Source: Mesorhabditis belari
Lineage: Eukaryota > Nematoda > Chromadorea > Rhabditida > Rhabditidae
NCBI GenBank assembly: GCA_958450365.1
Contig: CAUEEP010000935.1
Coordinates: forward strand, 2,058,001-2,122,000
Direction: 5' to 3'
DNA: 64,000 nucleotides
How positions within the stretch are numbered: position 1 is the first letter of the stretch; each line of letters starts with the position of its first letter. The position numbers and the translations under genes were made by a program. This document shows positions 12,728-64,000 of this stretch, in pieces. A model generated the notes under the pieces. That model was given only the letters and a program-made list of their open reading frames with translations, did no database searches and was not told the DNA's origin.

Positions 12728-14189
12728 AATTTCTTGGCATTCGGATAACGTTTCGATATTAAGTAAAAGAGAGATTGAATTTGGTGAAACTACAGTCTAG
12801 TTTAATATAAAAGACACAAAATTATAGCGCTAACGCTTGTAAAAAGACAAGGTTTTGAAGTTGGCTCAAAGTTGAAGGCAATCGAAATGCAAACGTTTCT
12901 TTGAAAATGGTCGACTTTATTCGGGGAAAATTTTTCCGTTTTTTCGTTTCTTCTTGTTTGTTTCCGGGAAACCGAAGAGGAAGAGGCGGTTTTTGAGAAA
13001 TTTTTTTCAACTGTTCTGAATTTTTGAGTGAAAAAAGGGGAAGAAAAAGATAGTGATGATCTTTTACCCAACACTTGGAAAATTTCCATTGTGTGATGAT
13101 GTGAACTGCCAAGGGCAACCTTTATTCTTCTTCTTCTTCTTGGGTTCGTCGACCTGTTTCGTTTTGTTCGAGCTTTTTTTCGGAGTGAAGATCAGAATAG
13201 ATTTGAATGGACTGGGAAAACCTTTGAAAGCTTTTTTCTTGGGCATGCTAGAATTGACGAGTTGAGTCACCAAAAAGCTGCACTCTAATAAGACACCCGA
13301 AATACCGTACCCTAAACAATGTCGCGTATAAAAGAACGCCTCATTTCTCATTTGGAGAAATGTTTCTCTCATTTGTCTCGCGCAAATTGGTTTCTTTTGT
13401 TCGAGATAGTTTCACAAATTTCATTAAAGTGATTCCTGTCTCTGGATCAACACATTGTTTCTTTGAGCTTCGTTGAAACATTTTTTACACGCTTTGCCCC
13501 ACGTGTATTGAATAAACTTGGTTTTGTTATTCACTCAAGCAAAAGCGCACAGGTCTAGCCACGTCTAGTTTTAGCCAGGTCCTTCAAAAGCGTCCGGTTT
13601 TGTTCTTCATTCAAGCATCTAGTGAATTTAAGGGAAAGCACACTAGTAATTCGTAATACAAAGCAAATTAGCTTTGATAATTGTTAAATGGAGCTTTTGT
13701 TATCGATAGATGATTGATCAAGTATAAAAAAATGCTTTAAATTTTTATCGTCTTTGCAGATTTGTCTTGGGATTTTTTGTTAGAAGATCAGCTGATTTCT
13801 TGTGATTCAAAGTGAAATTGTGATTTCATTGTGCTATTGAAAGCTTTCTTTTATTACCAGTATTGCTTATTGGCAAAAGCCCGATGGCGTAACAACAAAA
13901 TTTACAAACAAAGTAACAGAAATGATAACAAGAAAAACAAAACAAGGATTTGGTAACATTTCAACACTTTTAGAATAAGAGTTTCAATTTTGATGACTAC
14001 TTGGGAGAATTCTATCTTTAGTGTCGCATTTAGCGTAATCTTGTCCATTCTTTATCAAAACTATTCATTTTTGACTCTAATTCTGTGAGAAAAAACAAAA
14101 GATATGAAAAGTGAATAGATTCGATAAAAATTAGATACAAGATTACGGTAGAATGGGGACACGGTTTAGGGAAGTGGAAAGATGAAATT
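12728..14189. other. Spacer between convergent genes, no confident gene
   Basis: This lies between the plus-strand series and the 3' end of the SID-1-like gene. On the minus strand 13064-13372 is open for 102 codons with a Lys-rich tract (GPKKKKKNK-like) opposite a TTC repeat at 13122-13142. I see no homology and treat it as chance. Three GTTTCA/TGAAAC cores are present (about 13408, 13474 and 13981). Confidence 0.4.
14052..14170 (-). repeat. Interspersed repeat, copy 1 of 3
   Basis: The reverse complement matches copies at about 19148-19245 and 29203-29345. Shared landmarks are CCTAAAC(C/T)GTGTC, CTTTCTACCGTAATCT, TTTTATCGAATC and TCGATATCCTTTGT. It ends about 20 bp from the SID-1-like stop codon, so it probably forms part of that gene's 3' region. 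Confidence 0.7.
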
Positions 14190-17100
14190 CTAGAAGACGT
14201 GTAATCGTTCTCTTGGAATCGCCGATGTTGAATCGTCGATTGTTGAGATCGAAATAAGTGAGAAAACGGAGGCCAAGGCGGATAGGAAATGCCAGAGATC
14301 GTGATAATCGAAGAAATCCAGCATAATGCATTGAGAGTTCAGTTCACGAGATTTCGCCGGGGAGAGCTGAAAGTGTGCTGTCCAATTACAGGATTTTGAT
14401 TGTTTTTTTCAAAAAATTGATTAATGCATAACTGTCCTTTACACGTTTGAACTCCTATACTTTACTATACTTCCTAAAACTTGGTTTGTTTAAAGTCAAA
14501 GAGCTTAAAAATGTTTTTGTACGCGGAACGCCATGTTTCAAAACAAGCACTTTATTGTGTAACCGTCTCCAGTTAGTCGTTCTTTACTTTTTCCTTCAAA
14601 AACTTCAGGTTAACAAAAGATAGACCAATAGTAAGCTATCTACTATATAGAAAAGAGCAGTGTCTGTCCCCGTCCGTTTGTACGAGCTTTTTCTTAGCCA
14701 TTTTTAGACCAAAAAAGCTGTAATTTTTTTTAAAGACTTAAAATATCATATAGTTGTGCCATTTAAAATAAGAAATTAAAAAAAAACAAAATTTACTGGC
14801 ATTACGGTGGGTCGAACCCGGATCGTGTGGACCGTAGACAAGCGCGCTCCCCACGGCACCACGGCGACAAAAATACGGCCAGAAAAACCCGTGATTAGGC
14901 GAGTTTTTCAGCTGGTAAAGTCGATAATTGATGCATGCAGTTTTGGAAAATCTCTGGGAATTCTGGCACTTTTGTGGTCTATCGGAGGAATCAGCATGTT
15001 TCATCGTCAACCTTTTGGCATCTAACGTCTCAAGGTTAATCTTTCCATTTGAATTTCCCCATTTAAATGCTATCTACTCAGAAAATGACCCTTTTTCGTT
15101 GAAATCCACTTTCGGGCTAACTTTCTAGCTTTTAGATACAACTTTTACTGAAATACAGAAGATTTAGAACTGTTGTCGACTCACTTTTAGCTGAGATTAA
15201 GAAAAACTTTGTCGGTGTTGGCTTTAAAAAGTCAAAAACTTCAAGAAAAACTGATTCTGAAGACTTTTGAAATATTTTGAGCAAAATTTCCCAACCGTCC
15301 AATCGGATTCCTCTCTCGTGAAGGCGAAAAGCGCGAATGTCCAGCAAATCACGGCCATTAACAGAGAGATTTTCGTGATTTTCGAGAGTTTCTCCTTAGA
15401 GTGACGCTGAAATTTCAAGAGTTTCCCTCCTTTTTTTGAAAACTTTAACTTTATTGAAAACTTTACTTTACTTTTAACTTTTAACTTTATTTCTCTTTAA
15501 AAACCTTATTGAGCAGATAGTATCCCAAATAGAAAAACAAGTTCAGGACGACGAAAAAGACGACCAATTTGTTCGCGTGGAGATAAGTGTGAAAGAAGAA
15601 GTAGATCACTGGAAATTGGGGGATTGTTTGAACGAAAAGCTGAGCTAGCTTTGAAAAACTTATACTTGAGTGGATTTCAGTTTGTTTACTGAAAATTTTT
15701 GACTGTTAAAATGCTTTTAACTATTTTTACCGGCCAACAAAACGTTGATCGAAGCGACGAACAGGAGAATTCTCCCTTGGTAATTGATAGTGAGACGACG
15801 GAAGAAATCCGGACGTATCGGTCCTGAAAAATTTCATTTTTTAAAATTTAATAGTTAAAATATGAAATTTTAAGTTTAGATTTCAGAGAACATTTTTAGA
15901 GTTCACAACAGAATAATAAAACCTGTTTTTCGCTTGAGTTCACCAAAATTTGAAACGCATATGCTTGTAGGGATTGTAAGGCCTTTCAATTTTGAAAGTC
16001 AATCTAGAAAATTCATCCGGCTCATCCGGTTCATCCAGAAGCAAGCTTTTCAACATTTCGCAATAAGTTTAAGAATCTAATTCCTTGATTTACTTTCCAA
16101 AAAGTGTTTCCCCGTATACACTTTGAAGAGGCCAAAGAGGAGGGAAATGACGAGAACGATCGCTTGGAATGGCCATGTCCATTGGTGTTCGGCGAGTTGC
16201 TGCAAATTGAATTTAATAACTTGGAGATATCCTGCCTTTGGTCCTTTGATATTTTAGTTCAATTTATTGTAATAAGATAGGTACAGGATCCTTAAATCAT
16301 TCCCGAAATTCCCTCACCGAGACACAAAAGTCGACGAAGAGAGCGATGGCGACAAAGAGATGAGCTTTCGTGTTTGATGGAGTCCCGTGTCTCGATCCAT
16401 ATAATTTCACCCATCCCAACACGCAAACGATCACGATGAATGGAGTATCTGATATAAAGTTGTATAAAAGATGTCATTAGTTTTTTAAAGAAGATTAAAG
16501 TTATAACTTTAACCTCTCTAACTAGGAATTTATTCAGTAATTTGAAGCTGAATTCTTTGAAACATACAAAATACAAGAGTTGGAAACAAAAAAACCATTT
16601 TTTTTTGTTCAAATAAATGCTACTACCTTGATTTATTTTTACTCACCAAATTTATACGTGCTCTTTGATGGACACAAATGATAGACCCCACTCGCGATCG
16701 CCTCACAAATCAACGCCAAACCCATCGACCATTCCAGGTGGACATTTTGGAAAACGCCCATTGGTGACTAGAATAAATGGAAATGAGTGGGAATATTGTT
16801 GGGTTTAAGGTTATTCCAAAACCATTTTCCTAGCCCTAGTCCAGGTACAGAACTGTTTCAGAAAAGTATCTGATTGTGAGTTTTGTGCCCAGAGCTAAGG
16901 CCTGGATCTAAGTTGAAGGTCCAGAACAGGACGTGTAAAGCTAAAGTCCAACTAGAAGCGAGGAGTGAAATCTTGGCCTAGCTGCTGACTTGGCTTACTG
17001 CAGGCCTGCCAACAAAAAGCAGCCGCCAGAAGCCAACCTGGATCTGATTTCCCTGGTTTAAGGCCTGGGACCCTGGAAGATCCTTGGTCGTTTCAGAATT

Positions 17101-20100
17101 TACCTGGGAATCCTGTCCTTGTCGCCATTTTGAGTGGATCTTGACGAATGACAGGTAGAAGAAGCCGGCGAATGCTGAAAATAGCAGCTCATATCTAGGA
17201 TTTTATAAAATTTTCCCTTTTGTCCCTAAGCTTCAATGCTTCAAAATATTTATCTATTCACAAAGGAATGTCAACCGAGTGTGGTGGCCAAATGACAAGT
17301 CCCATGGGTCATTCGACGCAGAATTCTATGCTGGTTCGGAATTCGTTTTCCATTTCTGCTCTGGAGCACTCTTTCAAAATTTATAAGCGTGTTTTGTATG
17401 GGATTTCAAAAATCATCCCTAATCGCATAAAATTTCATTTAGCTTACTTACTTTTTCATTTCTGAATTCTAAATTTCTAAATTTTAAATCAGTTCAATCT
17501 AAACTCAATTTTCAGTTCAATGTTTCTTTTCTAACCAATTCTGCTTATACTCACCGTAAGGTGCATTCGAAATGACATGATTGAAGCTCTCGATATTCCC
17601 CCATTTCTTTGCGCACCCGAAATTGTGAAAGCAGTGATCAAGAGAGGGGGTTGGTTGCTGAAAAATGGGCAATTATCTAGATTGACTGGATTGATGAGGC
17701 GATATAGCTGTTTTGGTGATTTTGTAGAGAATAATCCTGATCAAATTGCTTTTTTTTGGTCTGTTTTAAGCTTTAATCATTCAACTTCTTCTTTACATAA
17801 ATTCTCCTGTACCTGAAAGTACGAGATAGCTATTTGGACGATGATCGGCATCAAAAAGAAAGCGAATTGGAAATTCTCGAGTGGGATTCGATTCGATGAT
17901 CGGTTACCGTCCTGAATTTGGTTTTAATTTTAAAGATTTTAATTTCATTCATTTTCTCGGAAGTAAAGCGTAGCCGATTTGTTTGAAAGTTTTTGGTATA
18001 AAAGGTATAAATTGCTTGTTAAAATCTCAAATCTTTCTAATTCAAAGAACGAAACGGTGAGTTTCAAAGTGATCGGCTAGGGAAAGGAGTAAATATTGTT
18101 AATACCTTGTTGTTTAGAAGATTTTAGGTAAAAAAAGATTGTTTAAATCTTTTAACCGACAAGGCATTAACAATATTTACTCCTTTCCCTAGCCGATCAC
18201 TTTGAAACTCACCGTTCGATTCGTGGAATTTGAAAGTGAAAGAAATTTGAATGATTTGAGATTTTATTAAGCAACTTATACCTTTTGTACCTAAAATCTC
18301 GTTGTTTAGTACCGAAGCTGATGTTGAACTTTATCCTAAATTTCTTGAATCTTTGAAGTTGATCCGCATCTTGATACAAAATTAATATATATAAATGTAC
18401 TTTGTGCTCTGATTATTTTGAAACACGCTTTTTTCTATCCATTTTTCAAACTTCTAATCATAAGTATCACTAGTAGAAGACTTAGAAGTTTTAAGAAATT
18501 TCGAATTTTAAAAATTACTTAAATAAACAGCTGAAAATATACAGCTCAAATATACAGCTGAATAAAGAAACAATTCTAAACCACTAAGGAATTGACGTTA
18601 CTCATTCGTTTTCTTAACGCCTCATTTTGAAACTCACTGTCTCATCACGAATGAGTGCATATTCTGGTTCCTCGTTGAGCCCAATTTGATCTGCTGAATT
18701 GAGTTCTAAAAAATGAATTTGAACCAATGACAAGTTGGTGAATGAAAAAGAAAAAGCTTGTGTTTCAAGTTTGTCGAATCAAAGCCCATATTTGTCAAGT
18801 TAATAGCGTTACCATTCTTCCAGCATGGGTTTTCTGTACTTAGAAAAATTGATTTCTCAAAGATTTTCTCAATATTTTTAATATTTTTAATTAGTACCCA
18901 AAAGCTGAAGATTCGCATTGTCATCGTTGTTCCTTTGTATAATTCTCCATTCAATCAACGCGTCGTCTGCGTCGATCGATTCCATGGGGATCGCTTCTTC
19001 ACGGTTTATCTGGTTATCATGAATCAATGTTACTCTATTTGATTCATATCAAATCTGCCAATTTCTAGCAAGAATTGAATCTGATTTCGTAAACAATTCA
19101 AAAGCAAATATTTGAAAAAAGAAGCAGACGGTGGCTTTCTAATTGATTTCCCTAAACCGTGTCCCCTTTCTACCGTAATCTTGTCAGATTTTTATCGAAT
19201 CTATCCACTTTTTGTATCTTTCGATATCCTTTGTAAAGCCAGAATTGAAACAAGATTAAACTGAAATTTCTCACCATTTCTTGTGGTTCCCTCGTTTTCG
19301 TCAAATAGCGCACGAGCTGTTGCCTGAAAAAAACGATTATTTTCAAAATAAACGAATTTTGGAATTTTTAAACGAATTAGCCTTTGCTCTACATGATTTT
19401 CAAATCTTATAGGCCTATCAAGATATTTTTAGAGTAATTATATTAGCTTTCAGTACTATAAATGAAATTTTTTTCGGCTTTATTTAAGTTTTATTGTCAT
19501 CATTGCTCTACAGGTTTCTTGGTTAGGGCCAAAAATTGAAACTTGTAGAATTTTTCAAGTAAAATCCATTGATAAATTTGTGAAATAGCACTTTCTGAGC
19601 AATTTTAAACGCACCCAGCCACCGGTAAAATCGGCAGAATCATCAGAAAAATTGAGAAGCCGAAAAGTGCGGCGATCGGTCGAGAAAACGGTGTTTCGTC
19701 GATCAACTGATACGAGATTTCGATCTTTTTCGAGCGTTTTTTCGGGCTATCTCAAATGAAACGTAGAACAATTGTAAAAAAATAAATAGGTATTATGGCT
19801 GAATATTTCAAATTTATTGTACAGCGTTATGCCGACGGAAATATGCGCCCCGGATTACCTTTCCTGATGAAGTCTTGAAGTAATTTTCTTTGAAACTCGA
19901 TTTTTTCTCAACGATTTTCCTCGAGTTTTCTTTCAAAAAGCTTTGGATTTCTGTTTTTTTTGAATTTCAAAACCCAGCTCTATTATGTGGCAAAGAAACA
20001 AGTTTTATTGAATTTTATATAATTGGGAAAGAGTTTACATATTACAATCGCAATTACAATTTACAATTTACAATTGCATATTACAACTGTAAACTTCATT

Positions 20101-23100
20101 GTAACCTTTTTTGAAGCAATTTTTTAGAAACATTTAAGCTAGTTATTTTTCTAATAGAATTTTAAAAGATAAATTTTGGGTAGCCTTTAAAACCGACCCC
20201 ATTTTGTGGCACAATGCTCATCGTTTTCATCAACCAGATATCGAAGGATCAACGGCTCGTCGTTTTTCGGCTGAATTTCGTGAATTTTGGTGAATATTGA
20301 TTTGCAGAAGTTGGCGGAGAATTGCATTTGCTATTGTGTTTTTTGAAGAAATTTGGAGAAAGAGATTCAACAACGCGTCAACAACAGCTTCCAGCATTAC
20401 TTCTTTATCATCAATATTGAAACTTGCTAGGGAACTGTTTCAACTTATTACCGATTTACGAAACCGGATTTAGCTACAAAAAACGCCCGTCGAATTCTAA
20501 GAAACATATATTTTTGATTTTTTCCCAGTAGAGGCTAGTTCTTGAGAAAGTTTCGGCTAATTTTGGCAAACGCGTCTATAAGGGGTCTATAAGGGGGAAG
20601 GGAGAAAGAGCCACGGTAGCTTAGGGGATTTTCCGCTACAAACCATGCCATTTTTCCTCGCGAGTTCAATTCCGCTCCCAGTGAAACTTTTGAAAAAGAT
20701 TTTTGAGGTTCCCAAAGTGTCTTAACTTACATCTAATAGCTAAAAAACGTCTAAACTAGCTTTTGAAGGGGATATTTGTTCAACATATGTATTCATTTTT
20801 CATTTGAAAGCGTGTTCTCATTGACTTAATTTACAGGACAAGAGTTAATTTAAAGCTGCTCTTTGTTTTGTTTGCTTTGGTTTTTAAATGTTAGATGTTT
20901 TGAATGCTTTAAATGTTATTTACATGACAAACTAAATTAAACCAATTGCTATTTTCATTGAAGTTGATTGTTTGAACCTTCGAAAAAATCACCTTGTAAT
21001 CCAATGAGAATTTCTTAGTAAACGATCCGATTTGTTGATCGTGTTTCGCCAGCAAAGAGTTGTGCATTAAAGCAGTCTGAAACAATCTCATTTTTAGAGC
21101 GGATTGTAACTGGTAGAGAGATATTATTGCTATGTAAAGTCGTCGTAAAACAGCTTACAAGTAGCATTGAAGATTTTGAGGTAAAGTTTAATTTGATTGG
21201 TTTGCAACAAGCTTTTAAGATTGCTAATATAATCGACTAAAAAAGTGAGATTAGTTTTAAAAAAAGCTTGAAAACCTTTGATTATCTTTAAACCTATCAA
21301 AATCTAGCTTATCTTTCACTGTTTTTTCAAATGGACAATTTTTGAGTCATATTTTGGAGGCCATAAACGGCCATTTTGAACGTAAAAACATAAGCCTTAA
21401 GAAATCAATTCGCCCGGATATAAAGCATAGCTGAATTCTTTGAAATTCGATTTTTTTTGCTTTTTACTATTCAATACCCAGCTTTATTTCAAATAGGCAA
21501 AGAATTAACGATATTTACTTCTTTTTCTAATTGAATGCTTTAAAATGTCTCAGTTCTTAAAAATTCATCAAAAATTGTTTAAAACTGTAAAAAAACTGAA
21601 GTTTTTCTAATTTATAGTGAATAAAAGCTCAAATGGAAAAAAGCTTAACAATGTTTACTCTTTTTTTCAGAACTTTACTTTTTTATATCGGTTCACTTTG
21701 AAATTCGCTGTATTATTGTGAATATGATGACTCTAGCAATGAATTTGGAAGAAAAATGGAAAATGGAAAAGATAGATGTGAAATGGGTTTAAAAATTGTA
21801 ACTAGGTAGCTAAGTTGACAAAATTTCTGGCAAAAACCTAGCCTTGATCGTGTCGGGTTGGGAAAATTGACTGCACTCACCGACTCCTCGAGAAGCATGA
21901 CTCTCATGCAAACTTCATCACTCGAATTGACGAGGATTCGGATAAGAGAGGTTGGCTCTGAAAAAATAAACGATTTTAATTTTAATCGATTTAATTTAAA
22001 GTCTGATTTTCTATTTTCTAGCTAGAGTGCAGCTTTATTCTTGATCGGATTCGAAACTTAAAGATGTAGACTTGAAAAAAACTCGTTTTAACTCCAAAAA
22101 TCGGATCTTTCCGGTGAGGTTCTCATCTCAACCGATCTCAACCGGTTCTTTTATTCAATGTTTGGCAGGTAACCGTGTTCTTATGCTTTTCTATGCTTTT
22201 TATTCTAGGGGAGTTGATGATTTTATTAAATTTCAAGTAGCGTCCCTACCCTACGATGAGTTGAGTCGAAAAGAAAGGAAGCTTATTCTTAGTTCTGAAA
22301 AATGACTTTACCATTGGAATACAATATTTACTCAAGCAATAAAATTTTTGTTGGCTTTTGGGCTAATTTATATTCGGTTAATGATAATAAACTATCATTA
22401 ACCGAATATAAGTTGGTCTTTCCAATTTCTTCACTTCTTTAATTGTTTGATGATCAATCAGCAAAAGTTACAATAGAAAGTAGGAAAGGTCGGCTGAATC
22501 TCTTAGTTTCCTTTGAGAATCCCCAATCCCCTTGTACTTTTCCCCCCAAGAATCGTTACTAAAACATTTTCTAAGCATCAGAACCCTTGTGCACTATGTT
22601 TACGAGTTAAAATTAAAAGTTTGCTTTGAAAGATGAGAAAGAAAGTTGAAATGAAAAGCAAAAACAGTCTTTTTTGAATACCTTGCATTCCAGTGAAGAT
22701 TTACAGTATTTTTTTCTTCAAAGATTCTGTATTTTCTATACTAAAGTTTATGGTAGCGCTAGCTTTTCTGGTTCCCCTCAAGATGACAGCGTCACTAACA
22801 TAAAATTTTTTCACTTTACCTTAGATTCTTTGAAACAAACTTTTCTCAACGACAACAACTCGATGTTCCATGTAATTCGACGGAGTGAGAGCTTTGAATG
22901 ACCATTGTAGGCTGAGTGGGGACTTGTTGGAGAGTCTAGAAATTGGGAAATGAGTGAGAAGATTGAAAATGGGAAAAGCGGTCAAATTGACCCAAGCTAG
23001 GCCTTGGTAACGAGGAAACTCACAACGAAATTTTTCGTTCTTCGTTCTTCACAACGAAATTTTTGAAAACTTGCAAAAGCCCATTGATAAAATATTCAAT

Positions 23101-25660: not shown

Positions 25661-25941
25661 TTTAAATCAGCGATCTTGGTGTCATTCTAAATTTTGTTAA
25701 ATGGCAATAAAGTATTTTGGGTACTCAAATTTGATTAAACAAATATTTCGAATATTTTTTTAAGAGCTCTCAAAAGTCTGACAAGGCAATGCTTCGAAAT
25801 TGCTGGGATATTTTTGTGACTATCGTCCATTTCATTGTTATGACGTAACTATCGTCCATCTCACTATTATATGGTGTTTATAAATACTTTAAAAGTTTTA
25901 AAAATGCTTCCCGGTTATATTTCAAAAAAAGCAAAGAATTT

Positions 25942-26016
25942 GTCGTTATCGGGACTCGAATTCACCGGAAAATGGGATTAGCGTTTTTATAGACGAGAAC
26001 ATTAACCGTTAGGACG
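25942..26016 (-). repeat. tRNA-like sequence
   Basis: The minus strand reads GCGGCGTCCTAACGGTTAAT (A-box region) and GAATTCGAGTCCCG (B box) about 40 nt apart. Acceptor pairing is weak. Probable tRNA-derived repeat. Confidence 0.45.
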
Positions 26017-30345: not shown

Positions 30346-39506
<9,161 letters not shown>

Positions 39507-40272
39507 CTGCGAAAACGACAGGATAATGAAGCAACGGACATGATTGTTTATGTACAAATTGTGATGTTGATTGAAGGATCTGGAAATGCTATCTTTTGTA
39601 GTAAGAGTTACTGTGAAAAATAGGAAAATAAACATAATGTTTCAAGTTTGAAGACGTTGATAATCGTTTAATCGTTGATAATCGTTTAATGGGCTACTTG
39701 CGTTCTGGTTTCAAATCTTTGTACAAAGAAAGCATGCAAAGACTTGGTTTGCTATCTATAGGCTTTACTTTGAAAAGTTTCATGAATTATATCTATATAA
39801 TATATAGATACTGTATTCAGGACCTGAAATAAAGTGCGCTAGATTTAAGATTAATACACATAACACAAAAATGGTCGATAAAAAGCAACACGATATTAAT
39901 GTATGCAATGGGCAGCACAGATAAGAACGTCAAGAATCCACTAGAGCCTCAAGATCAAGATCATCAACAGATAATTGAAAGGTTTCGAGACTATTGGACT
40001 CTCTCAAAACTCTGGGGAGTCGATTCGAAATTCCAAATTCTGATAGTTCTTATTGGAAAAGAGTTATACAAAAATTTATTGAATGTGAGTGGAATTTCTA
40101 AAACGAAAGAACCTCTCTTTAATGACATGGATTGACATGTTTTTATTATAGCTTTGATTTGAAAGAAAGAGGCATTGATTGATTTCTTTTCAAAAAAACA
40201 TTTTTCAATCTTAAACTTTTCAAATTTGTTTCTTTGTTTGTTTAAAAAATACAGTTGTTTCATCGAAATCTA

Positions 40273-41480: not shown

Positions 41481-41534
41481 AAAAAAAAGAAGAAATAAAA
41501 TGTGACCAATTCGAAAACAAATAGATAGTGATAG

Positions 41535-45640: not shown

Positions 45641-46099
45641 AATCCTTCGACCCAAGAAAAGTCTCAAGAGAATCGAATTGGCATGATTTTGCAAATGATA
45701 ACTTTTCACAACGAAAAGATTCGGATTTCCGAGAAGTACCCGCATTTTAGTAGTGAATTTGGTAAAAAAACCGACCAAACCTACGGCGCAAACTTGTTCA
45801 TTATTAAAGCTCTATTAGCATTTTAACAATATCATCAAATTGTGTTTATTTTGAAACATAAACTTTCTAATCATCAAAATAAAAACAAAAAATTGGACGA
45901 TTTCCGCAAATTTCAAATTTTCTATACCCTGAAGTAGTTTAAAATCCGATTTTGCAAAAGAAAAGCTGATTAAATCCGCCTTTATTTGTTATTTCCAGGT
46001 AGAACAACAAAAAAAGCTTGTTCACTTTGAAAAGTGAATTTTCAAACAACCAAAAGGTACACGAAAATTTGGTGAATCTGCATAAAATTTCATTGCGTT

Positions 46100-49083: not shown

Positions 49084-49185
49084 TACCGTATTTTCTCTAA
49101 TGGTAGTGCACCCCGGCGAGCCGAGTTGGCGATGATTTTACGGTTTCCAAGCTTTTGCAGAAGCTCAACACCTTTCAAAGCGTGA
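49084..49185. mobile_element. TACCGTA-family MITE, partial copy
   Basis: The left end and first 95 bp match 49328-49420 (GGCGAGCCGAGTTGGCGA, GGTTTCCAAGCTTTTGCA). The right terminus is missing. Confidence 0.8.
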
Positions 49186-49327
49186 TGTTTAACTGACTAT
49201 TACCGAATACTTTGTAAAATGTCTGATGGATTACTGTAGCTTTGATACAGTACCCCTTACTACTAAACGTGAAAACTGAAATGCCAAAAGCCATCCAGCT
49301 ATTTGTTATCAATGCCTAAATGATAGT

Positions 49328-49549
49328 TACTGCATTTTCTCTAATAGTAGTGCACCCCGGCGAGCCGAGTTGGCGACGATTTTACGGTTTCCAAGCTTTT
49401 GCATAAGCTCAACACTCTAATCCCCCACTAGATCTCATCGTCAGCTACATTTTCCGATCCCACAACAATAGGTTCTGATACGCGGTTCTCAAGATTTCGA
49501 GGAATTTAGGCGACACACATGGTGCACTACTATTAGAGAAAATACGGTA
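49328..49549. mobile_element. TACCGTA-family MITE, complete copy
   Basis: Complete element of about 222 bp with both termini. It is inverted relative to the copy at 32164-32375, sharing its interior (AGATCTCATCGTCAGCTAC). Confidence 0.85.
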
Positions 49550-50400
49550 TTCTAGAAAACTACCGTTGTTTTCTAGAAATTTTCATTTGATCAGCCCAAA
49601 GAGATTAGAGATTTATTGTGCTTTTTTCAAAGCACAAGAAATCTCTAATTTCTTAAATCTTTAACATAAAAACTTTTCAAAAAGTGATTCCAAGTTGGCC
49701 AGTTTAATGCTAACTGGCTCCACGTTGTTAGAAGTCTACACATTTTTGTTTTAAATCCAAAAACGGTTCTTGTCTTGCTTTGAAAAATCGTTTTCTTCAC
49801 TAAAACATTTTATTTTTCTTCGCGTGATATAAATGCGTTTCAATTTTAAGTAGAATGTATTAGATAAAAAGCAGTCACTTGAAGATTCTGCTTAATGCAA
49901 TCTTAGTAGCAGCTCTAACAATAATCCTAGTTTTTCTTTATTTTCTTTACTTTTTTGACATCAAAAAAATTCACGGAGAATCGAGGTTTCAACGTTAGCA
50001 GTGTTCTATCTAAATTAGTATTGAGAGTAACAGGTTAGGCTCGTTGCTTTTTAAAAACCAAGACATGAGTCCTGGCAGACTAGATTTCGTTGTGTCGGTA
50101 CCAATAAGCATCGAGACAACAGTGCAATAAGTGCAGTCCAAGAGCCTAGAGCCGCTAGAATGCGATAACATTAAGATTGAGACCCAAGTGTTGCACCAGA
50201 TCCTTAGAACAATCCGAGTACATTTCGACTTAAAACCAAGAGATCCAAGGGATCAAAGAACGCTTTGATATCTCTTTTTCAACAAAAGCAAAACACAAAA
50301 TCAAATCCGTATTGGCTAGAGATTATCAGTTTCACCCTAGATGGAGATAATTGAGAAGAGGGAGTGCGACACGAGATTGGAGTTGGGAATACAAAAAAAT

Positions 50401-50468
50401 GGTCGGCGTCGGGAATCGAACCCGCGACCGCTCGCTTACCGGGCGAACACCCTACCGACACGTGTCCC
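50401..50468 (-). pseudogene. tRNA-like sequence with good anticodon and T arms
   Basis: The minus strand reads GTGTCGGTAGGGTGTTCGCC, CGGTAAGCGAGC, then a strong T arm, CGGGTTCGATTCCCG, and ends CGCCGACC. The anticodon loop would give GGT (Thr), but position 33 is C rather than U and the D arm is eroded. I call it a pseudo-tRNA. Confidence 0.55.
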
Positions 50469-52298
50469 ATTGCCGTCAGGGTAATAGATAAATGTAGCCA
50501 AGTTTAAGAGCTTCAATATTTTATATAACACTTAACAGATTAGGGTTAAAATAGATGCTTGGGAGCTAATCTACCAAAAAGAATCTCGCCGTAAATACCC
50601 TGTATTTCCAGTCAACTTTTTGATAGTTTAATATTTGGTATTAACTGCAAATAGCAGATCTATCAAATAAGTTGACAGATTTTATCAAGTATTGCGTGTT
50701 TTACCAGATATTTTTGGTGCAACTAGAGCTGTGGCAAGTATACGAAGCTATTTTAGTACCCGATTCTTTGATCACCTTCTGATTAGAGCAATTCGAGTGA
50801 TTAGATCGAAACATTTCCTCCATTTCCATGTTTTGATATCTTTTCTTTTAAACAAAAAAACAACACACTTTGATTTTTTGCGAGAAGTGTTTTTCTCGTG
50901 TTTTGTCGAGTTTTTTGGAAAGAGAAAAGGAGAAAAGGCAAAAAAAGGCGTGGAAATCTCTGTGTTCTCCTCGGAATTCCCTCTATTTTTCTGTTTTTCT
51001 TTTCCTCAAGACATGTGTGTGAGTGCGTGCCAGGAACCCCCCACCAAATGGGAAAAGTTCACCTAAACATAGAGAAAGAAAGTGAGGAGAAAAGATTGGG
51101 GAAAAGGGAGAGATTTTCGAGAAATTGTTCTCCTTTTTCCCTTCATTGAAGACTGGCCATCAGCCAGGCCATTTCTTTTTTGCTTCTTTTTTTCATTCTA
51201 AACAGGCTTTTATCTTAATGATAATCAAGGAATTGAATGAAAAAAAGGCTTTAGCATATTTTCTCTGGGATTTATGGCAAAAAAATTTCCCCAAACAAGC
51301 TTTGTTTTACCGATTTTAAGCCAACGAATCCTGTCATAATGTCATTTGAGCACTTGTATTATTTTAAAAACCTTAAAAACTTGTTCATGCCAGCAAAATT
51401 AAGCTTTAATCTCTAATTTTATTTAACTAAATCAAAAGAGTTTGCAAAAAAGTCGCCTGTCAAAAAAAATATTAATTCGCTTCTTGCAAAAAATATCAAG
51501 TTTCAATTTTACTGATTTCACAGGGCTTGTTTTTACGTTAATTTGAATATCTTATTTTTGATAATTTTTTAATGAATACTCTTCTCTAGCATTTCTTTCA
51601 TTTACTTTTAGATTGGTTTACTCAAGCAAAATTTTAACTTTCAATTTTAACTCTACCCAGAACATAGGGTCCTTGTATTTGTTGTTTTTTTTGTTCTTTT
51701 GTTTGTTGTATTTCTTGCTTTTCAATCTCATCATTTTCCTATTGAATGAGAAGACTTTTAAAAAAAGATTCTGAGCTTTTAAAATCCGATTTTTGTTTTG
51801 AAAAATTTCGTGTTTTAATTTCTCAAAAGGCCTGAAAAGGCCTGCTTTTTTTCTAAGATAGTTTAGTTTTTTCAGATTTCCAATTTTCCAAATTCATTGT
51901 TTTTCTAGGTTTCAAAATCGAAAAAGAAAATTGAGAGGAAAGAAATTGTTTAGTCATCACTTTTTTCTTCTTCCAAGTCCACGAATTTCGAAAGAAAGGC
52001 CAACTTTGGGTAAATAGCTTTTAAAAAAGCAACACAATTACTTTATTTCAGTCAAACTGTGATTATCTTTTTTTTTACTTAAACTCATTTTATGTATTGA
52101 TGAGTAAAAGAGTTATTTGTGAAGGCATCAAGTCAATCAAGCACTTAAAATTAAAAAGTCCACTAATTTTGAAAGAAAGGCCAACTTTGGGTAAATAGTT
52201 TAAACTTACACTTAGAATTTTGTGTGTTTCACTTTAATCAAACATTTAAGACACCGTTTAAGCTAAGAGAATTGATTTTCTAAATCTAAAGAAAAGAC

Positions 52299-52566
52299 TA
52301 CCCTAAATACTGTAATAGTACCCCACCCCCATAATGACGGTGCGGAGCGCTGCGTAGTCTAGCTTTGAACGAGTTTTTCTCGGCACTGGTTTAAGCTACA
52401 ATGCGCGCTTAGGTATCAAAAAATAGCTGAAATTCAGGGCTATTTATTGGTACCAAAGACGCATTTTTCAAAAGTATGGGCGCTTTGAAAAAAATGAAAT
52501 ACTAAAAAACTTTTGCGACTACCCGACTGTACGAGGGGGGTGGGGTGCTATTACAGTATTTACGGT
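52299..52566. mobile_element. TACCGTA-family MITE, CACCCC variant
   Basis: TACCCTAAATACTGTAATAG at the left and CTATTACAGTATTTACGGTA at the right. The interior GCGTAGTCTAGCTTTGAACG is shared with 33514-33763. Confidence 0.85.
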
Positions 52567-55500: not shown

Positions 55501-55920
55501 ATTTATCTAAGGTTATTGATTTAAAAGAAAAATAATAACTTATTAACTTATTTAACTTATTTCCCAATATAATAATTTATTTTTATTTTTAATAAGATCA
55601 ATTTGCGCAGTTCTTCTCATAAAACAAACCAAATTAACAAGGAAAATTTTGAAGTTTCAAAGGGTTTAAGGGAAAAGAAAATCAATCTTTTATTGCTTTT
55701 TTTTCTAAACTTAATAATCTAATTAGATTTGCTTTCTTGTTTATTTTTTGTTTTTTTTTGTTTTTGTTTGTTTTTGTTTCAGTTAAACACCTTAAAAGGC
55801 AATTTCAAAGCTTTTTTTATTGCTTGTTTCAAGTTTTTCGAGATTGAATCTTTCAGCGACATATTAATGAACCTCGCAAACGGCTTCTTTTTGCTTAAAA
55901 ATTCAATGCAAATTGAACTC

Positions 55921-56030
55921 TTGTTCTTGTTCCTATTCTTATTCTTATTCTTATTCTTATTCTTGTTTTTATTCTTATTTTTGTTCTTATTCTTATTCTT
56001 ATTCTTATTCTTGTTCTTCTTATTCTTAGT
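55921..56030. repeat. (TTCTTA)n minisatellite
   Basis: About eighteen hexamer units with G substitutions. It creates a spurious Leu/Phe repeat frame. Confidence 0.95.
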
Positions 56031-56739
56031 TCCAATTCGAAGTTATTCTTGCTTTACACTTTAAAAGCAACATTTTAGTCATTTTTAATGTCTATCATTT
56101 AAAAAAACTCGATTTTCTTTAAAACTCAACTGTTTTCGAATAGAATTCTCAAATTTTTAGCCACTTTTTTTGAAACCGATCTTTTTTCCGGCGCGAAAAA
56201 GCAGTTTTTCAACAAAAAAAATGAATCAGAAAGGGGAAATTTCCTGGCTTTTTCATGAACAAAATTGACTCATTTCTTCCGATTGCTTTTATTGTTTTTG
56301 TTTGCTTAGAAAAGTGTTTGTGAGTTTTTTCGCATCAAAAACAAAAATTGTAACTCAAATTCTGACTTATTTCCTAAAAAAAATGACCTTTAACACTCGA
56401 AAATTGTCGAAAAAACGCCTCAACTCGTTGTCGAAAAGGAGTGAGTTTTCATGTTTTCATGTTTTTAAGTTTTTCACTAAAATTAAGTTGTTCCAAAAAA
56501 ATTTTGGCAAACATTTCAAACTGATGAATCTTTTTGGAGAAAAATTATTTGAGTTAAAGCTTTCAGAAATCATTCGAAACCAAAATCTAGGCTAAATGAT
56601 GGTGTTTCAAGATTGATCCTCATCAAACCTTAGAACAGCGCCTTCTTATCATAGATTTGGTTGAGTGCTTTAAAATTGTAAAAGGAAAACATCAAAACCC
56701 TCTTTTTAAAAAGTTTTTCGGCTAAACTTTTGGCTTTTC

Positions 56740-57000
56740 GAGGCTTTTGGCGACTAGGCGTGGCTCTTTTATCTTGCATCTCGAATCTGCTTTCTCTAAA
56801 TCCTCTAGAGCTTTTTTTGTAAATCGTGTGATTAAAGTTTGCAATGCCCTTCCCGACAAGTTGCGTTTGATCTCCACCGTTTCTGATTTTAAAAGGGCTA
56901 CTTCGTTGCATTTTAAGTGACTTTTTCATCTTTTATCTGCTACATTTTTCATGTCGTTTTCGCACTTTATTTCTTTCTAAATAAAGTATTTATATCATCA
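56740..57000 (+). mobile_element. 5'-truncated LINE end
   Basis: The plus strand reads ESAFSKSSRAFFVNRVIKV then CNALPDKLRLISTVSDFKRA and a stop at about 56921: the same post-RT pattern as the element at 41535. It is followed by a short 3' region ending TAAATAAAGTATTTATATCA. Confidence 0.7.
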
Positions 57001-60000
57001 AATCGATACCGAAAATTGTCTATTTGTAAAGTTCAAGTTTCAAAATCTTTCGTCACAAATAATCTTTCAGAGATTTTGTCAAAAAACATAGTTTTCTTGA
57101 TCTAATTATGATAAAAACCTTTACAATGCAAGCTTTAAATTCTAATGTTTCAAAGTGTTTAGCTTAAAAAGTAGAAATTGAAAGTCAATTGGACCAGAGC
57201 CTGCTTTTAAAAATTTCTTATTGAACTTCTCCTGCTTCGTTTTTCTTTTAACATTTGCCTCTTGTTTTACGAAAACCTATTTTCGTCTTTTTCCAAAATT
57301 TCGGCGGATATTGGACACATTTTCGAGAGTTATTCGACATTTTTTTAAAGAATACTTTAGAAAAGAATCGATCCAAAGAGCTTTCATCCTTGCAAAATTA
57401 TCTTTTACAACGTCAATATATAAGAAAAGTCAACTTTTTGTATTTATTTCAAATCTAAGAATCAAAATAAAGGGTTGAATGAGGTTTTGTGGGAGATTTA
57501 CGGTAATTTGAGTGGTTTAGGTGCTCAGAAAAAAGTAAGTTTCAAATTATAACGAATAAAGTCGCTTTAAAAATTTCCAATATTCCAATATTTTCCAAAT
57601 TTTCGTTTTTTCATTTTTTTTTACTTGTTCAAAATAGAATCGACTAGATTTTTTGGATTATTTTTATGTCAAATCAAATGGGAAATTTCGTTTTTTTATA
57701 AGTCCGTTTTTTCAGGTACATCATTAAGCCCAAAAATCTTTATTTTAAAAAAAGAACAAAAAGCAAGTTTCAATTTTATCGAAATTTCTTTCCCTCTGAA
57801 AGGCTTTCGTTCGTTTCATTTCAGTGTTTCAATGGTAAACTTAAGCTATTAATTGAATACCATAATATATCCTTTAAAGGCTACTCTATCAAATCGTTTT
57901 TTTTGGTTTAAAAACTTTTGCTCTTCTACTCCTTTTCCAGATTCCAGATCCTCAAAAATCCGAAAACTTTCGATTTCCTTCTCATTTATTGAATCCCCTT
58001 CGATAATCCCTCTATTTTGTCCAATTTTAAGTTTTTTTCCTTAAAATCACCTTGGAGAGTAATCCGGATCGTATAATCCGGGAAATTGTTATTCACTTCA
58101 AATTCTTGATTGTTCGATCGATCTTTTATCATTTTCGAACTTTAGATACTAATTTTTGATAGATTTTCGAGTTCTGACGATTTACGTGACGAAAAAATGA
58201 TGAATTCTGTCTTTTTTGAGGTTCAATATTGGGGCAAATTTCTTGGCTTCTTAAAGAAAATTTTAAAGAAAAGAAAGAAATTGCTTTTTGGCTTTTATTC
58301 CTATATATTGATCGGTTTAAAACACGATTCTTTCGGGATAAAATTCACTTTGATATTTAAATTTACTGTAAAGTCCCGTATTCAGCATAAAAAGCACTCA
58401 GTTGCGTTAAAATGTGTTTTTCTGATTAGATGTTTTCAGCGTTTCATTTCGAGTCATTTACTTGAGTTTTTGAGATGAAATTTTGCTAGCGGATAGATTT
58501 GTATAAAAAAATCAATTATTATTAAATCATTAAAGCTTTACTTGGTTTTATTACTTTAATAAAAGTGAAACGTTTCTTTTTAAAGTGTTTAGAAAAGGAA
58601 AAGCTTGATGTTCATCCAATTTTTGAATGATTTTTGCTTTTGAAACGTACAATACTGTAAAATTTAAGTAAAGCCTAGTACTGTTGAGTCGACATATCTT
58701 TAACTCCACTTACAACCAAAGCTTTTAAAAGATGTTCAGTCTATCGGCTACGGATTAGAGCTACAGTATGGCTAGAAAGCTCAAATTAAAGTCGAAAGCT
58801 TCAATTTTAAGCCACAAAACTACTTGAATTTCCCAGTAGATTCTCTTTTCTGGAACATTTTTGAAATTTCAAAGTTACAAGTAACTCAACGAAACTCGTG
58901 ACCTCATCAAAAACTTGATCTCAAATCTTTCCACACTAATCCCTTTTATATTTCTTTTCATTTTCCATCCAATTTCCATTCATTTCCCCTCAACTTTTCA
59001 GCAAATTCATCAAAAAGAAAAAAATGAGAAAAATCACCGTGGAGAATAATCCCATTCCGATTTTTTCTCCTCTTTTCCTCAAAAATAATATTCATTTTTG
59101 TGTCCACTGAATTCCCAAGGAAATCCTCTTCACAAAATTCAGAAAAAATCCTGTCGTAAACAACAAGTTTTTCCCCGTCTTTCATTGTTTGTCACACTTT
59201 TTCTTATCACAAAAAAAAAGATTTAGTTCGAGAGTTTTTTCAATCAAAAACACACACTTATTTGAGTGTGTAAACACTTTCGGATTCAGTTTTTTCCTTG
59301 GAAAATTCTAGTTTCAAACTGCTAACGATATTCAAATTCAAATTTCCGATTGAAACCCGTATATTGTTCTTTTTCAGCGTTTTTGATTCAAATTTTTTGA
59401 AAAAGATCAACTTTTTTGATAGTCAGAGTTTTAAGGTTGGATTATTTTTAAACTCAGCTTCATCCCCTGAATTGTCTAGACGTAAATCTGAGTTTCATTT
59501 TCTAAGTTTCCAAAACGCAACACGAAGCATTGAAAATTCGTGAAAAATATTCAAAGTTTCACGTTTTGGCGGCTTCGATAGTGACTAAAAACCCTTAATT
59601 TCCTAACCTTTTTTTGTACATAAAAGATTAGATTTTATTAAACTATTCAACCTGTTTCTTTTTGTAAATAGTTAATGATAGTTGATGAAATTTTGATAAA
59701 ATCTCAATGAACTTTTATGATTAATGAAAATGGTAAAAAATTTCAAGTTTCAAATTGAACTGAATTGTGATGGAGCTCGAAATTGGCAATGGTGTTGACT
59801 TTCTGTACCTTCAATAATCTTTGTTTTAAAAATTAGTGATAATCTTTTCGTTTCATTTTATTTCAAATTTCCGAATCTATTAGCCAAACCGATTAGATTC
59901 TTTTAATTGATTAAGCAAAAGACTAAAGTTGCAATTGTAACGGTGTCACGCGTTGTTTCCAATCTAGAATATAGCATGGTCAAGCAAAGTTCAACCAGGC

Positions 60001-60529
60001 TTCCTATCTGGGTTCGAATTTCAAAAATTTATGTTTATTATTGATTCAAATTGCTTCAGATTTCCATTAGTTATCATTAAATCAAAAATCCCAATTAAAG
60101 TCTATATTTATGTCTAGAAACAAAAAGCAAAGTTTCAATTTGAACGTTATCATGCGTTCCTTTTGGCAGATAGTCTTGACAATAGTTTGATTTCTTATTT
60201 AGTTTCGAAATTGCAAAGTCTATTCATTTTCTTTGTGTTAATTAAAATCGCTAATCTGCAGTTTTCTTATTCATTCAAAATTCAAATCATTAACTTTCAA
60301 AATTGCAAAATTTATACGTTTTTTGTTAATAAAAATCACTGTTGATCTTTTATATTGAAGATTTTCTCATTAGTTTGCTCAATTTCCTCAATTTTCTCTT
60401 TTATTGTTTCCAAGAAGATAGAAGGGTAAAATCAAGGTTTCAATTTTGATTAACACCAATCATCATCGCAAAGTATCTGTAAACGAATTAGATCTTATTG
60501 CCATGTCAAATCTGCCCTCTATTTAATCT

Positions 60530-60690
60530 TTTTGTACCTGTGTTTCCTAACTCTAGTCTTACTGTAGACTATTTTTGGTTTCCTTTCTTTTTTGTGAAAG
60601 TATTCTAGCAATATGTTAGTTGCGGTTATGACTATCTGATTCGCTTCTATTTGCCCCCTGAATAAAGCATATATATCACAAATGTTCAAT
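60530..60690 (+). mobile_element. LINE/SINE 3' tail fragment
   Basis: It ends CCCTGAATAAAGCATATATATC, the same tail as at 41535-41560 and 34800. No coding part is left. Confidence 0.5.
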
Positions 60691-60785
60691 TTCGTTTCGT
60701 ATTTGTCAAATTTTCGCAATTTTCCACTTTTAAACTACGAAATCTACTAATTCATAAACTTTTCTGAATTTGAATTTCAGGCAGA

Positions 60786-63395
60786 ATGTCGATGACATCA
60801 TTATCGATGAGATCCCGTAAATGGGAAGACGTTTTGATGGAGGGATGGTTGCACAAAAGAGGAGAACATATCAAGAATTGGAGGCCACGGTGAGCAAAAA
60901 GTTTAAAAGAACAAAAAAAAAGATGATATAGATTATATAAATATAAAAAGATATTAAAAAAAGATAAAAAAAAGATAATAAAAAAGATAACAAAAAGATA
61001 ATCTAAAGTAAAAAGTACGCTAGAGGTGATTTTTGGTTTTTAAACGATCACAGATTGAGGCACAAATTTTTGTCTTTTCAAGTCCCTCCAATAATAAGGG
61101 TTTAAGTACAAATAAAGGATTCTAACATTTCATTTTCAAAGCCTTCATAGCAAAACTTTGCATTTCAAAAAATGACTTTAGATTTAGATTTTAAAACAAT
61201 ATCAATGCTTATTTTCCGCTTCAGTTATTTCCTTCTCTTCCGCGACGGTGCCCTCGTTGGATTCAAGTCGAAACCGGAACACAATCAGTCATTCCCCGAG
61301 CCACTCAACGATTTCATGATAAAAGATGCTCAAGTGAGTACTGTAGTTGATGATAAGATGAGGAAACATCAAAAAAAAGTTGACATTTGAGTTTAGCAAT
61401 CTAGGAATTCCATGCCTAATGAATTTAAAGGATAGACTGTGAATTGAAAGATCGTGTTTCAAATTATTTGATATTAGATATGAAACAACACAGCCAGTTT
61501 TGTTCACCTTTGTTTATTATTTTCCCCAAATAAAATAAAGATATATAAAAAACTATAAACTAATACAATAAAATAAAATGCAATATTCCAAGAACTTTGT
61601 GATTTAGAATGGTAATCCCTTCATTTTCTAGGTTTGCACAATGGAGAAACCTCGCGCGAATATGTTCATGATTCGATGTCTTCAATGGACAACGATTATT
61701 GAAAGAACTTTCTATGCTGATTCAGCTGAGGTGACAATTGGAAAGAGGAGACGAAAAAAATCCGCCCAAAAAAAGCTGTAGCTTCGGAAAAACTTGAGAA
61801 ATTCTAGAACATAAGTTCTAGATTTTCTAGATTAAACTTATGAAATCATAGTTTCGAATTGGAGATCTAGTCTTTTGTAAAGGAGTTAATAAGCAGCTAA
61901 AGCAGTTAATAACGAACAAGGCTCGAACTCTTATTGCATCTTTATAGGAGTTTCAAGTTTGACGACTATAAAACGAAAACAGCTAGCTAGTGAGGTCATA
62001 GATCGCAATAAAGTTTTCATTTCAAATTTTCCTTAACATTTCTCATTCAGAATAGAAGTTTCAAGCTTAGCAGTTAATATGCACTTTTGAAACAATTAAT
62101 TTCTAGCTTCTCTAGACAATTTAGTTTCTTCTCCAAGATTTGATTACATTTAACATTTCTCATTCAGACTCGTCAACGATGGATCACCGCAGTGGAATCG
62201 ATTGCAAAACGATATCGAGCGGCCGCCGAGGATGGAGATGAAGCAATGGAAACGGTTGGTGAGGTGCGGAGTGAGGAAATTGAGGGGAAAATATTAAGAA
62301 AACATAGGAAATATACGTTTACACTAAAAAAACACGAAAATCTTTCTTGCTCAAATGTTTTCATAAATCAAATACTACTTTTCTTTCAAAAACTTTGACT
62401 CTTCCGTGATTGTAACGAAATCTCTTTGAATATTAAACAATATTCGGCTTCGACATAGCATGAACAAGATTTTACTGATTGTGAAGTTGTTCGACTCTGA
62501 AAATCTTTTCATCAGTGAAAACGATTTTGAGATGAGCGTCGTTGGCGAAACAATTGAGAAGATCACTGCATCGGTCTTTCGCGTCTGTTTTGTTGCCCGG
62601 ATCAAAAGTTGTGCCTTACTTTTCTTGTGCACTTTTAGCTTCAAATGATCCTTTGTGATTCTCCCCAACGATCTAGCGGAAATCCGCAATTGTTTGGCCA
62701 TCTGGCGCATGCTGCACCCCGGGTTGCGGCGCACTCGATCTCGCACTTGTTTGATCTTGGCAGCGGTGACAACAGATCGCTTTCTACCCGAACGAGGACG
62801 ATCACTTTCCAAAGAAGTCGTTGAATTGTGCGACTCACCAGCTTTCGATTCACTTTGAGGCGTGTTTGAACTTGAATTTGAATGTCGCGCGCCGAAATAC
62901 CCTTTTTTGTGAAGAGCTATGATTCCTTCACGATTTGGAGACGGTCATGCCATTACTAAAAAACAACTTGAGGTCAAAAAACTGAAAAAAGTAGATCAAA
63001 ACAAATGGAAACCATATTAAAAGCAAAGAAATAAGCGCAAATAACAAAGAAATGAAACGCTTTTGCATTACAACTTATGGGAAAGTAATTATGCCACACC
63101 CTGTATGTGTTTGATATGTTTGCTTCTTTTTTTAACATTAGATTTGAACAAAATGAGCTTTAAACCTAGAGATATATTGGCCCCCATAACTTTTCAACAC
63201 CCTGTAGAATGAAACTTTCAGGTTTCAATGGAGGATTTGTCAGCACCGGGCCCAGGAATGCCCGGTCATCCAACCACTCATCATCATTTACAAGGTGGAC
63301 AAGTCGCTCCAGGACAAGGCTCATTTCCCCAACCACCGATGCTTCCACAGCAATCGATTGCCGATGCATCCGATGCGGCAAAGAGAGATCATATT
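60786..63395 (+). CDS. akt-2: AKT/PKB paralog 2, amino half (PH domain); continues past the right edge
   Basis: Second AKT gene, on the plus strand. Exons: 60786-60889, 61225-61333, 61632-61730, 62168-62263 and 63222-63395, all in phase. It starts [20 protein letters not shown], almost the canonical nematode AKT start, and a TTTCAG acceptor lies just before the ATG. The PH domain ([62 protein letters not shown]) is highly similar to that of the minus-strand copy. The hinge is longer and different, with Pro/His/Gln ([16 protein letters not shown]), ending in the shared [10 protein letters not shown] just before the kinase. The kinase exons are expected beyond the window, so I cannot say whether this copy is catalytically intact. 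A dead mariner-type element sits in its intron 4. Confidence 0.92.
62398..63102 (-). mobile_element. Tc1/mariner-type element, truncated, in intron 4 of the second AKT gene
   Basis: It has a terminal CAGGGTGTGGCATAATTAC (complement at 63085-63102). The minus-strand transposase remnant (62375-62812) shows the paired HTH region: [37 protein letters not shown], then [13 protein letters not shown]. Past that the frame shifts and the catalytic DDE/D part is missing. The other terminus is lost. A second ACACCCTGTA lies at 63197-63206, close to the exon-5 acceptor. Confidence 0.8.
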
Positions 63396-64000
63396 GTGAG
63401 TTTGGATGATTGGTTGTAAGTATGAATTGTAGGTTAGTATTGTTAAATCCAAGAAAACAAGAAAAAGTTGTCATTAGGCTGCATAAATCTATCAATCACG
63501 ACTTTTTAGTTTGTCAAGCTATAGAATTTGGTTAACTTTTCGAAAAATCCGATCAAAAAACAACCAATAAATAGAGATTTCGCAGTTTAGTATTTTAATA
63601 GACATTTGCAATAAGTAGAGCTTGACTGCGCCAAGATAAAAATGGAGTTTCAAATAAATTCAGCTCAAAATAAAAGAGATGGGATTAGTTGCTTAATAAA
63701 AGGCCCTACATTGTTCTTGAAGAAAAAGTGTTTAGTAAGAAAATAAGAAATTTTTATTTTAAAACTACTCAACTGACTATTTTAAGGCTTACTGTAGCAA
63801 GACAAAGCCTTGGAGTCACGAAAATGATCAAAAGGAATACGTGGTTTCAAAGTTATTGCTATAGCATTGGTTTAAATTTATATCAATTATAATAGAGCTT
63901 AAGTACTAGCGATCGGAAGGAAAAAGGGTACTTTTTGTTAGGTGACCCCCAATTTTTTGCGGCGAATCTGAACTCCATTGCTTAATTTTTTGCCCTGATC

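Follow-up and report, generated by a model that had tools for sequence, protein, structure and literature searches.

A GTTTCAA motif field at fixed distance from a YRNT initiator, probably part of a clustered nematode piRNA domain

PIWI-interacting RNAs (piRNAs) are small RNAs that guard the germ line. The 64-kb stretch of DNA analysed here, referred to throughout as the window (positions 2,058,001-2,122,000 of C710, a contig of 2,371,182 bases), very probably forms part of a nematode domain in which piRNA loci of the type I 21U-RNA kind are clustered. Several features are directly visible: a GTTTCAA core motif on both strands and outside the recognised exons of an AKT kinase gene, its fixed spacing to a YRNT initiator, a domain with one edge placed within 15 kb and, elsewhere in the assembly, a PIWI-clade Argonaute gene and copies of SL1. 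The sequence features of nematode type I piRNA loci that were tested all appear to be present, except for the exact C. elegans 8-mer CTGTTTCA. Since a nematode-wide survey defines the motif by GTTTC (PMC6436959), this shortfall is taken as a variant and not as an exclusion. As a system the domain is of a familiar type; its core is a variant, and its layout is unusual in being at once clustered and intronic.

Core motif, initiator and predicted loci

The hexamer GTTTCA occurs 157 times in the window (89 on the forward and 68 on the reverse strand), against a mean of 72.2 in 100 dinucleotide-preserving shuffles of the window (standard deviation 9.7, maximum 94). An earlier interpretation of this DNA (the sequence-only reading) had tallied 140-150 cores against about 44 expected; the excess is real, but an expectation drawn from base composition alone was too low. 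The same reading had described the cores as nearly absent (about ten) at 1-13 kb and as mostly extended to GTTTCAA, and the counts agree: ten GTTTCA lie within 1-13,400, and 111 of the 157 read GTTTCAA, only four of them in that first part. Between 13.4 and 64 kb there are 107 GTTTCAA in 50.6 kb (2.11/kb), 5.6 times the genome mean. Genome-wide counts were made on an assembly of 207.6 Mb in 714 contigs with the reversed word (AACTTTG for GTTTCAA) as control. The assembly contains GTTTCAA 78,197 times (0.377/kb) and the control 84,723 times; hence the word is not generally favoured in this genome. In the window, the control occurs 34 times (0.53/kb, vs 0.41/kb genome-wide). When samples of the domain are compared with the rest of C710, GTTTCAA is the top-enriched 7-mer by z score, with 236 copies in 134 kb (1.76/kb) against 37 in 75 kb.

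Column profiles numbered from the G of the core, computed over 157 window sites and over 293 sites of the wider domain (window included), reveal an A-rich box at -10 to -7, followed by a preference for C at -3, A at -2 and A or T at -1. Past the core, A is favoured at +6 and T at +9, with weak preferences until about +21. Little signal follows before columns +37 to +42, whose most frequent bases read T T T A A T. At 57 sites outside the domain on the same contig, columns +40 and +42 are flat (0.002 and 0.004 bits). The A-box combined with GTTTCAANNT is found 68 times in the 134 kb of domain and never in 113 kb elsewhere (2 and 0 for its reversal). The core is an A-box plus (A/T)GTTTCAA and not CTGTTTCA, the C. 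elegans motif that the sequence-only reading had put forward: this 8-mer has only four copies in the window and shows no enrichment (8,794 genome-wide, vs 10,166 for its reversal).

Downstream of the core there is a strict positional constraint. A YRNT stands at +39 from the G of the core in 39 of the 111 window GTTTCAA sites (35%). Across the domain, it does so at exactly that offset in 39% of 212 sites (window included), against 6% of 31 sites outside and about 7% by chance, so that not every core is a locus. Seven comparison words gave a mean of about 7% over 58 offsets, with peaks of 13-21% at scattered offsets, although TTTCAAA, which overlaps the motif, and TTGAAAC, its complement, are not independent of it. 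Among all 392 strand-specific 7-mers with at least 40 window occurrences, examined at offsets 12-65, GTTTCAA has the strongest YRNT peak (z 10.4); ranks 2-5 are shifts of the same word (TGTTTCA at +40, AGTTTCA at +40, TTTCAAA at +38 and TTCAAAG at +37), and the best unrelated word reaches z 4.3. Chance or AT-richness as the source of the motif field is rejected on the basis of the shuffles, the reversed word and this all-7-mer control. The predicted 5' U of the RNA is the T of the YRNT, 42 nt after the G of the core; the sequence-only reading had expected it about 40 nt downstream, and the YRNT peak now sets it at +42. Beltran et al. 2019 describe a 42-nt peak from the 21U site in each species studied, the base of the motif from which it is counted being unstated, and report YRNT initiators for nematode piRNA loci (PMC6436959).

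A position weight matrix (PWM) covering columns -13 to +20 was trained on domain stretches outside the window (samples L015-L020, L024 and L025), the window itself entering only via its background base composition. At scores above 12 the matrix returns 92 window sites, three of them within 1-13.4 kb; 20 Markov-1 sequences give 14.8 +- 3.1, and stretches outside the domain 7.7 per 64 kb. For 91 of these sites (one is lost to the ends), T occupies +42 in 55% and A occupies +40 in 59%. With an initiator term added and a threshold of 11, 123 window sites pass, against 25.6 per 64 kb outside the domain; 97 of the 123 start with T, a base that the score itself favours. At scores above 10 the matrix alone yields 140 window sites. 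Judging from the excess over outside-domain samples at several thresholds, the window would hold roughly 85-105 loci, or about 2 per kb past 13.4 kb. Example loci, all of them predicted, are the following, with PWM and initiator scores in brackets.

18051-18103, forward strand: predicted piRNA locus with A-box, core GTTTCAA at 18061, TAAT initiator and U at 18103 (PWM 18.3, initiator 3.1)
Core 18208, U 18166, reverse strand: predicted piRNA locus, mirror of the one at 18061, within the imperfect palindrome 17990-18296
34155-34207, forward strand: predicted piRNA locus lying between exons of the AKT gene, core 34165, U 34207 (PWM 17.4, initiator 3.3)
45814-45867, reverse strand: predicted piRNA locus, G of the core at 45857, U 45814 (PWM 22.1, initiator 2.3)
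51490-51542, forward strand: predicted piRNA locus, core 51500, U 51542 (PWM 18.6, initiator 3.1)
57137-57189, forward strand: predicted piRNA locus, core 57147, U 57189 (PWM 18.0, initiator 2.2)
59737-59790, forward strand: predicted piRNA locus with the top motif score of those listed, core 59747, U 59790 (PWM 24.7, initiator 1.1)

Imperfect palindromes of about 300 bp are present at 17990-18296 (77%) and 10527-10827 (81%), the first of which carries the two mirrored predicted loci.

Each locus would be a self-contained unit. Its A-rich box (-10 to -7) and its core (A/T)GTTTCAA with a T at +9 (a variant of the Ruby motif) are followed by a weakly constrained stretch up to about +36 and by the YRNT whose T, 42 nt after the G, would become the 5' U of the RNA. 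Type I 21U-RNAs are 21-nt RNAs with a 5' U that bind PRG-1, a PIWI-clade Argonaute, and their capped precursors start 2 nt upstream. We infer transcription, factor binding, precursor processing and chromatin state by analogy: RNA polymerase II, recruited by a SNAPc-related complex on the motif, would start 2 nt upstream of the U, make a short capped precursor and stop; the precursor would then be trimmed and loaded into a PIWI protein. More generally, the analysis indicates that raw sequence alone is enough to find and delimit a nematode piRNA domain and to resolve it into individual loci, each with a predicted RNA start.

Extent of the domain and competing explanations

Eight samples taken from 2,030,001 to the end of C710 contain 7-25 GTTTCAA per 10 kb, against 1-10 per 10 kb in nine C710 samples between 1 and 2,015,000. 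If continuous between samples, the domain has its left boundary somewhere between 2,015,000 and 2,030,000 and runs rightwards to the end of C710 at 2,371,182, a span of no less than 341 kb, of which 134 kb were sampled, window included. The limits of 13.4 kb and 64 kb first given to the field do not hold, as it continues on both sides. The flank to the left of the window is again rich in GTTTCAA (samples L015 and L016), which makes the gap at 1-13.4 kb an island inside the domain. Given the genome mean and the domain density reported above, and taking a background of 0.30/kb or more, domains this dense would, as a rough bound, account for no more than about 5% of the assembly. An even motif density along the genome is ruled out by the C710 sample densities and the genome-wide counts. 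The sequence-only reading had itself named even density across all introns genome-wide with no positional constraint as one outcome that would refute it, and what is found is an uneven density and a YRNT fixed at +39. Two parts of the window are accordingly distinguished.

1-13400, no strand: locus-poor gap within the domain, with compact genes (four sites with PWM above 10, 0.30/kb vs 2.3-3.4/kb elsewhere in the window)
13400-64000, no strand: part of the piRNA (21U-RNA) locus domain, on the basis of GTTTCAA sample densities

The gap holds a gene resembling THOC1, the better of whose two exons reaches 4e-6 in Pfam, slightly short of the cut-off, and a gene with a UBA domain. Loci concentrated in a large domain, as mapped on C710, with an internal gap at putatively active genes match the Caenorhabditis-type organisation, which is also marked by H3K27me3 chromatin and by host genes silent in the germ line.

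A number of observations weigh against assigning the window to a piRNA domain. The density ranges touch, since the poorest domain sample (L018) has 7 GTTTCAA and the richest outside sample (L010) has 10, with YRNT at +39 in five and two of their sites, respectively; this lowers our confidence slightly, and it stays high. A second, smaller YRNT peak (21%) falls at +9, where the motif's own T sits, and no more than about half of the GTTTCAA sites in the domain carry an initiator at +36 to +40 once background is allowed for. The core is without the CT known from C. elegans. Nor does finding a PIWI gene establish that its protein is supplied by this domain. In C. elegans, A/T tracts with a 10-nt period accompany piRNA regions; here this period is weaker inside the domain (power 3.4 vs 8.9 outside), which tells mildly against the assignment. 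Finally, the pausing signature, defined as the GC of positions 0-20 minus that of positions 26-40 after the U, is small (0.044 +- 0.011 over 225 domain sites) and takes the same value in sites lacking an initiator (0.043 +- 0.018, n = 73). The signature is thus weak and not diagnostic in this domain; a weak pausing signature is also reported for clustered species in the survey (PMC6436959).

Four other explanations for the motif field were weighed, and each of them has a very small probability. The one that survives best is a relict piRNA domain, with decayed loci whose transcription has ended. It would account for an initiator confined to about half of the sites, but throughout the sampled domain the core, the A-box, the T at +9 and the spacing are preserved, and the assembly has a PIWI gene, making decay very improbable. 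Slightly less credible still is a dispersed repeat, such as a transposon or a miniature inverted-repeat transposable element, that spread through the domain and brought the motif copies with it. Of 234 GTTTCAA contexts of 160 nt, 94 do resemble another at E 1e-4, and 13 of these match over at least 50 nt (e.g. 18061/18208 and 13981/29423). Nevertheless, 140 contexts have no match, 39 of the 94 resemble overlapping neighbours only and a further 42 have only matches shorter than 50 nt; little sequence is shared beyond about -13 and between +22 and +36, whereas a repeat should have left shared flanks in most copies, and these are not seen.

On a par with the repeat explanation stands the idea that the sites are promoters of some other SNAPc-driven short non-coding RNA, resembling small nuclear RNAs (snRNAs) or spliced leaders (SL). 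According to the survey, the nematode piRNA motif derives from an snRNA promoter element (PMC6436959), so the motif alone cannot separate the two. The many unrelated downstream sequences with a YRNT start, however, fit 21U-RNAs and not one conserved RNA, and the window has no Rfam hit at gathering score, which likewise eliminates a known Rfam RNA at that score. Least probable of all is that AT-rich introns and spacers simply abound in the motif, so that 1-13 kb would differ just as coding DNA differs from non-coding: sites do avoid the recognised AKT exons, the gap is gene-compact and the GC content of domain samples is a little lower (0.330-0.353, vs 0.353-0.386 outside), but the word is rarer genome-wide than its reversal and sparse in the outside samples of C710, AACTTTG is about equally frequent in the domain (64) and in the wider outside set of 113 kb (53), and composition cannot produce the YRNT spacing; the domain edge also speaks against this reading.

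Pathway genes and comparison with known systems

A PF02171 profile search of the assembly gives 57 matching stretches. One of them, on contig C179 (L028), belongs to a PIWI-clade Argonaute, its best PDB matches being Siwi, Piwi-like 1 and Piwi (E 2e-18) with Argonautes at 4e-6 or weaker, and loci on C189 and C702 have the same PF02171 scores. Two other Argonaute loci (L026 and L027) prefer AGO, with Argonautes as best matches. Argonaute loci with equal or near-equal scores recur on two or three contigs (C50/C687, C545/C550 and C179/C189/C702), which suggests uncollapsed haplotypes or recent duplicates. The exact SL1 22-mer has 430 copies in the assembly and its reversal none; the Rfam SL1 model gave no match among the best 50 of 79,819 first-look candidates. 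SL1 tandem arrays lie on C280 and C372, with spacings of about 870 and 960 bases. Together, the PIWI-clade Argonaute and the exact SL1 copies mark the genome as that of a nematode with the piRNA pathway, and they join the uneven density and the YRNT spacing in supporting the piRNA domain that the sequence-only reading had proposed. In the nematode survey, Piwi is found only in clade V and in plectids, and plectid piRNA promoters bear a second motif upstream (PMC6436959). No second upstream block is seen here (columns -60 to -14 carry at most 0.062 bits over 157 window sites), and clade V is hence the likelier placement of the host.

The domain resembles the type I 21U-RNA clusters of C. elegans (chromosome IV, Ruby motif) in its GTTTC core, YRNT start and 42-nt peak. 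It also resembles them in having a promoter per locus and in being a dense domain broken by locus-poor stretches, which in C. elegans are interruptions of active chromatin, with active genes and without piRNA loci (PMC6436959). It differs in that its core, (A/T)GTTTCAA, lacks the CT of CTGTTTCA, and in that its densest loci sit in a conserved kinase gene, whereas the piRNA-bearing genes of C. elegans are hardly germline-expressed (PMC6436959). With the dispersed intronic loci of the Pristionchus type, which are spread over the genome in introns of active genes, it shares loci within a gene, between exons and in both orientations; unlike them, it is gathered into a domain that covers 341 kb or more and whose edge is placed to within 15 kb, its core word has no genome-wide excess and its pausing signature is weak. 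The piRNA promoters of Plectus, which combine a Ruby motif and a SNAPc-like 5' motif, are alike in GTTTC core and pathway, but their second conserved upstream block is missing here. In the portions of the literature that were accessible, no domain of a named species recognisably the same as this one was found. The case adds a clustered domain with a variant core to the known systems.

AKT host genes and other features of the window

The densest predicted loci fall in an AKT/RAC-type kinase gene (gene a), which faces the start of a second such gene (gene b). In C. elegans, akt-1 is on chromosome V.

30349-39149, reverse strand: AKT/RAC-type kinase gene (host gene a), from Pfam and PDB matches of open frames
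39149-38922, reverse strand: gene a, PH part frame; no Pfam match, weak PDB match to RAC-gamma/beta PH (E 4e-4)
36858-36586 and 36092-35856, reverse strand: gene a, main kinase frames; clear Pfam kinase
33227-33006, reverse strand: gene a frame; weak Pfam match (E 0.08)
32670-32461, reverse strand: gene a frame; weak Pfam match (E 0.02)
30582-30349, reverse strand: presumed C-terminal frame of gene a, which we recognised by eye; no Pfam match
61199-64000, forward strand: start of the second AKT gene (host gene b), head-to-head with gene a, from tblastn of gene a frames

The best PDB matches of gene a are RAC-alpha and RAC-beta. Its span holds 30 of the 140 window sites with PWM above 10 (11 on the forward and 19 on the reverse strand), the highest density in the window (3.41/kb, vs 2.30 and 2.66 in the neighbouring parts), and none of these sites overlaps the exon stretches or a conserved block at 38277-38379. 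The kinase exons of gene b lie past the window (2,122,043-2,128,003, in sample L017), and 17 sites with PWM above 10 are found in the first 6,100 bases of that sample. Five of the six gene a frames match gene b by tblastn, at 67-99% protein identity, and the C-terminal frame does not. In its arrangement the pair (30349-39149, reverse, and 61199-64000, forward, with L017:43-6003) is an inverted, head-to-head duplication. At the DNA level, a comparison limited to 38201-39520 and 60801-61800 aligns three blocks of 74-129 bp at 89-95% and hardly anything else; sense-strand GTTTCA cores in these parts number four in gene a and one in gene b, and one pair shares 13 bases. The exon at L017:1898-2122 has 98.7% protein identity to that of gene a and is followed by a second version at 2439-2651 with 60.6%; the two versions are perhaps alternative exons or the product of gene conversion.

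Loci in the AKT genes lie between exons and are yet locally clustered, their genome-wide spread being bounded by word counts only. It is conceivable, if on balance doubtful, that the domain combines both layouts, with a bounded cluster of the Caenorhabditis type whose densest loci reside, as in the Pristionchus type, in a conserved and presumably germline-active AKT gene with a head-to-head paralogue. If this were true, clustering and intronic placement would not exclude each other, and the paralogue pair could be used to time the birth and loss of piRNA loci. With this pair, the turnover of loci and the division into clustered and intronic modes can both be tested directly.

The third most enriched 7-mer of the domain is TTGGAAA/TTTCCAA, with 86 copies in 134 kb against 12 in 75 kb of the rest of C710; its 39 window copies, three of them in one repeat, show no general shared context by eye. 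One repeat containing TTTCCAAGCTTTTGCA has copies 86-94% identical at 32167-32377, 49084-49171 and 49326-49545. Within the AKT gene span, a dispersed repeat of about 340 bp (approximately 34479-34814) has at least 39 other copies across the assembly, at 94-97% identity; it was the only match to 32400-37900 among those listed (the best 40 of 1,616 candidates), with no second copy of that region among them. An open frame on the reverse strand at 62378-62944 encodes a transposase-like helix-turn-helix (HTH_32, E 3e-6, under the cut-off).

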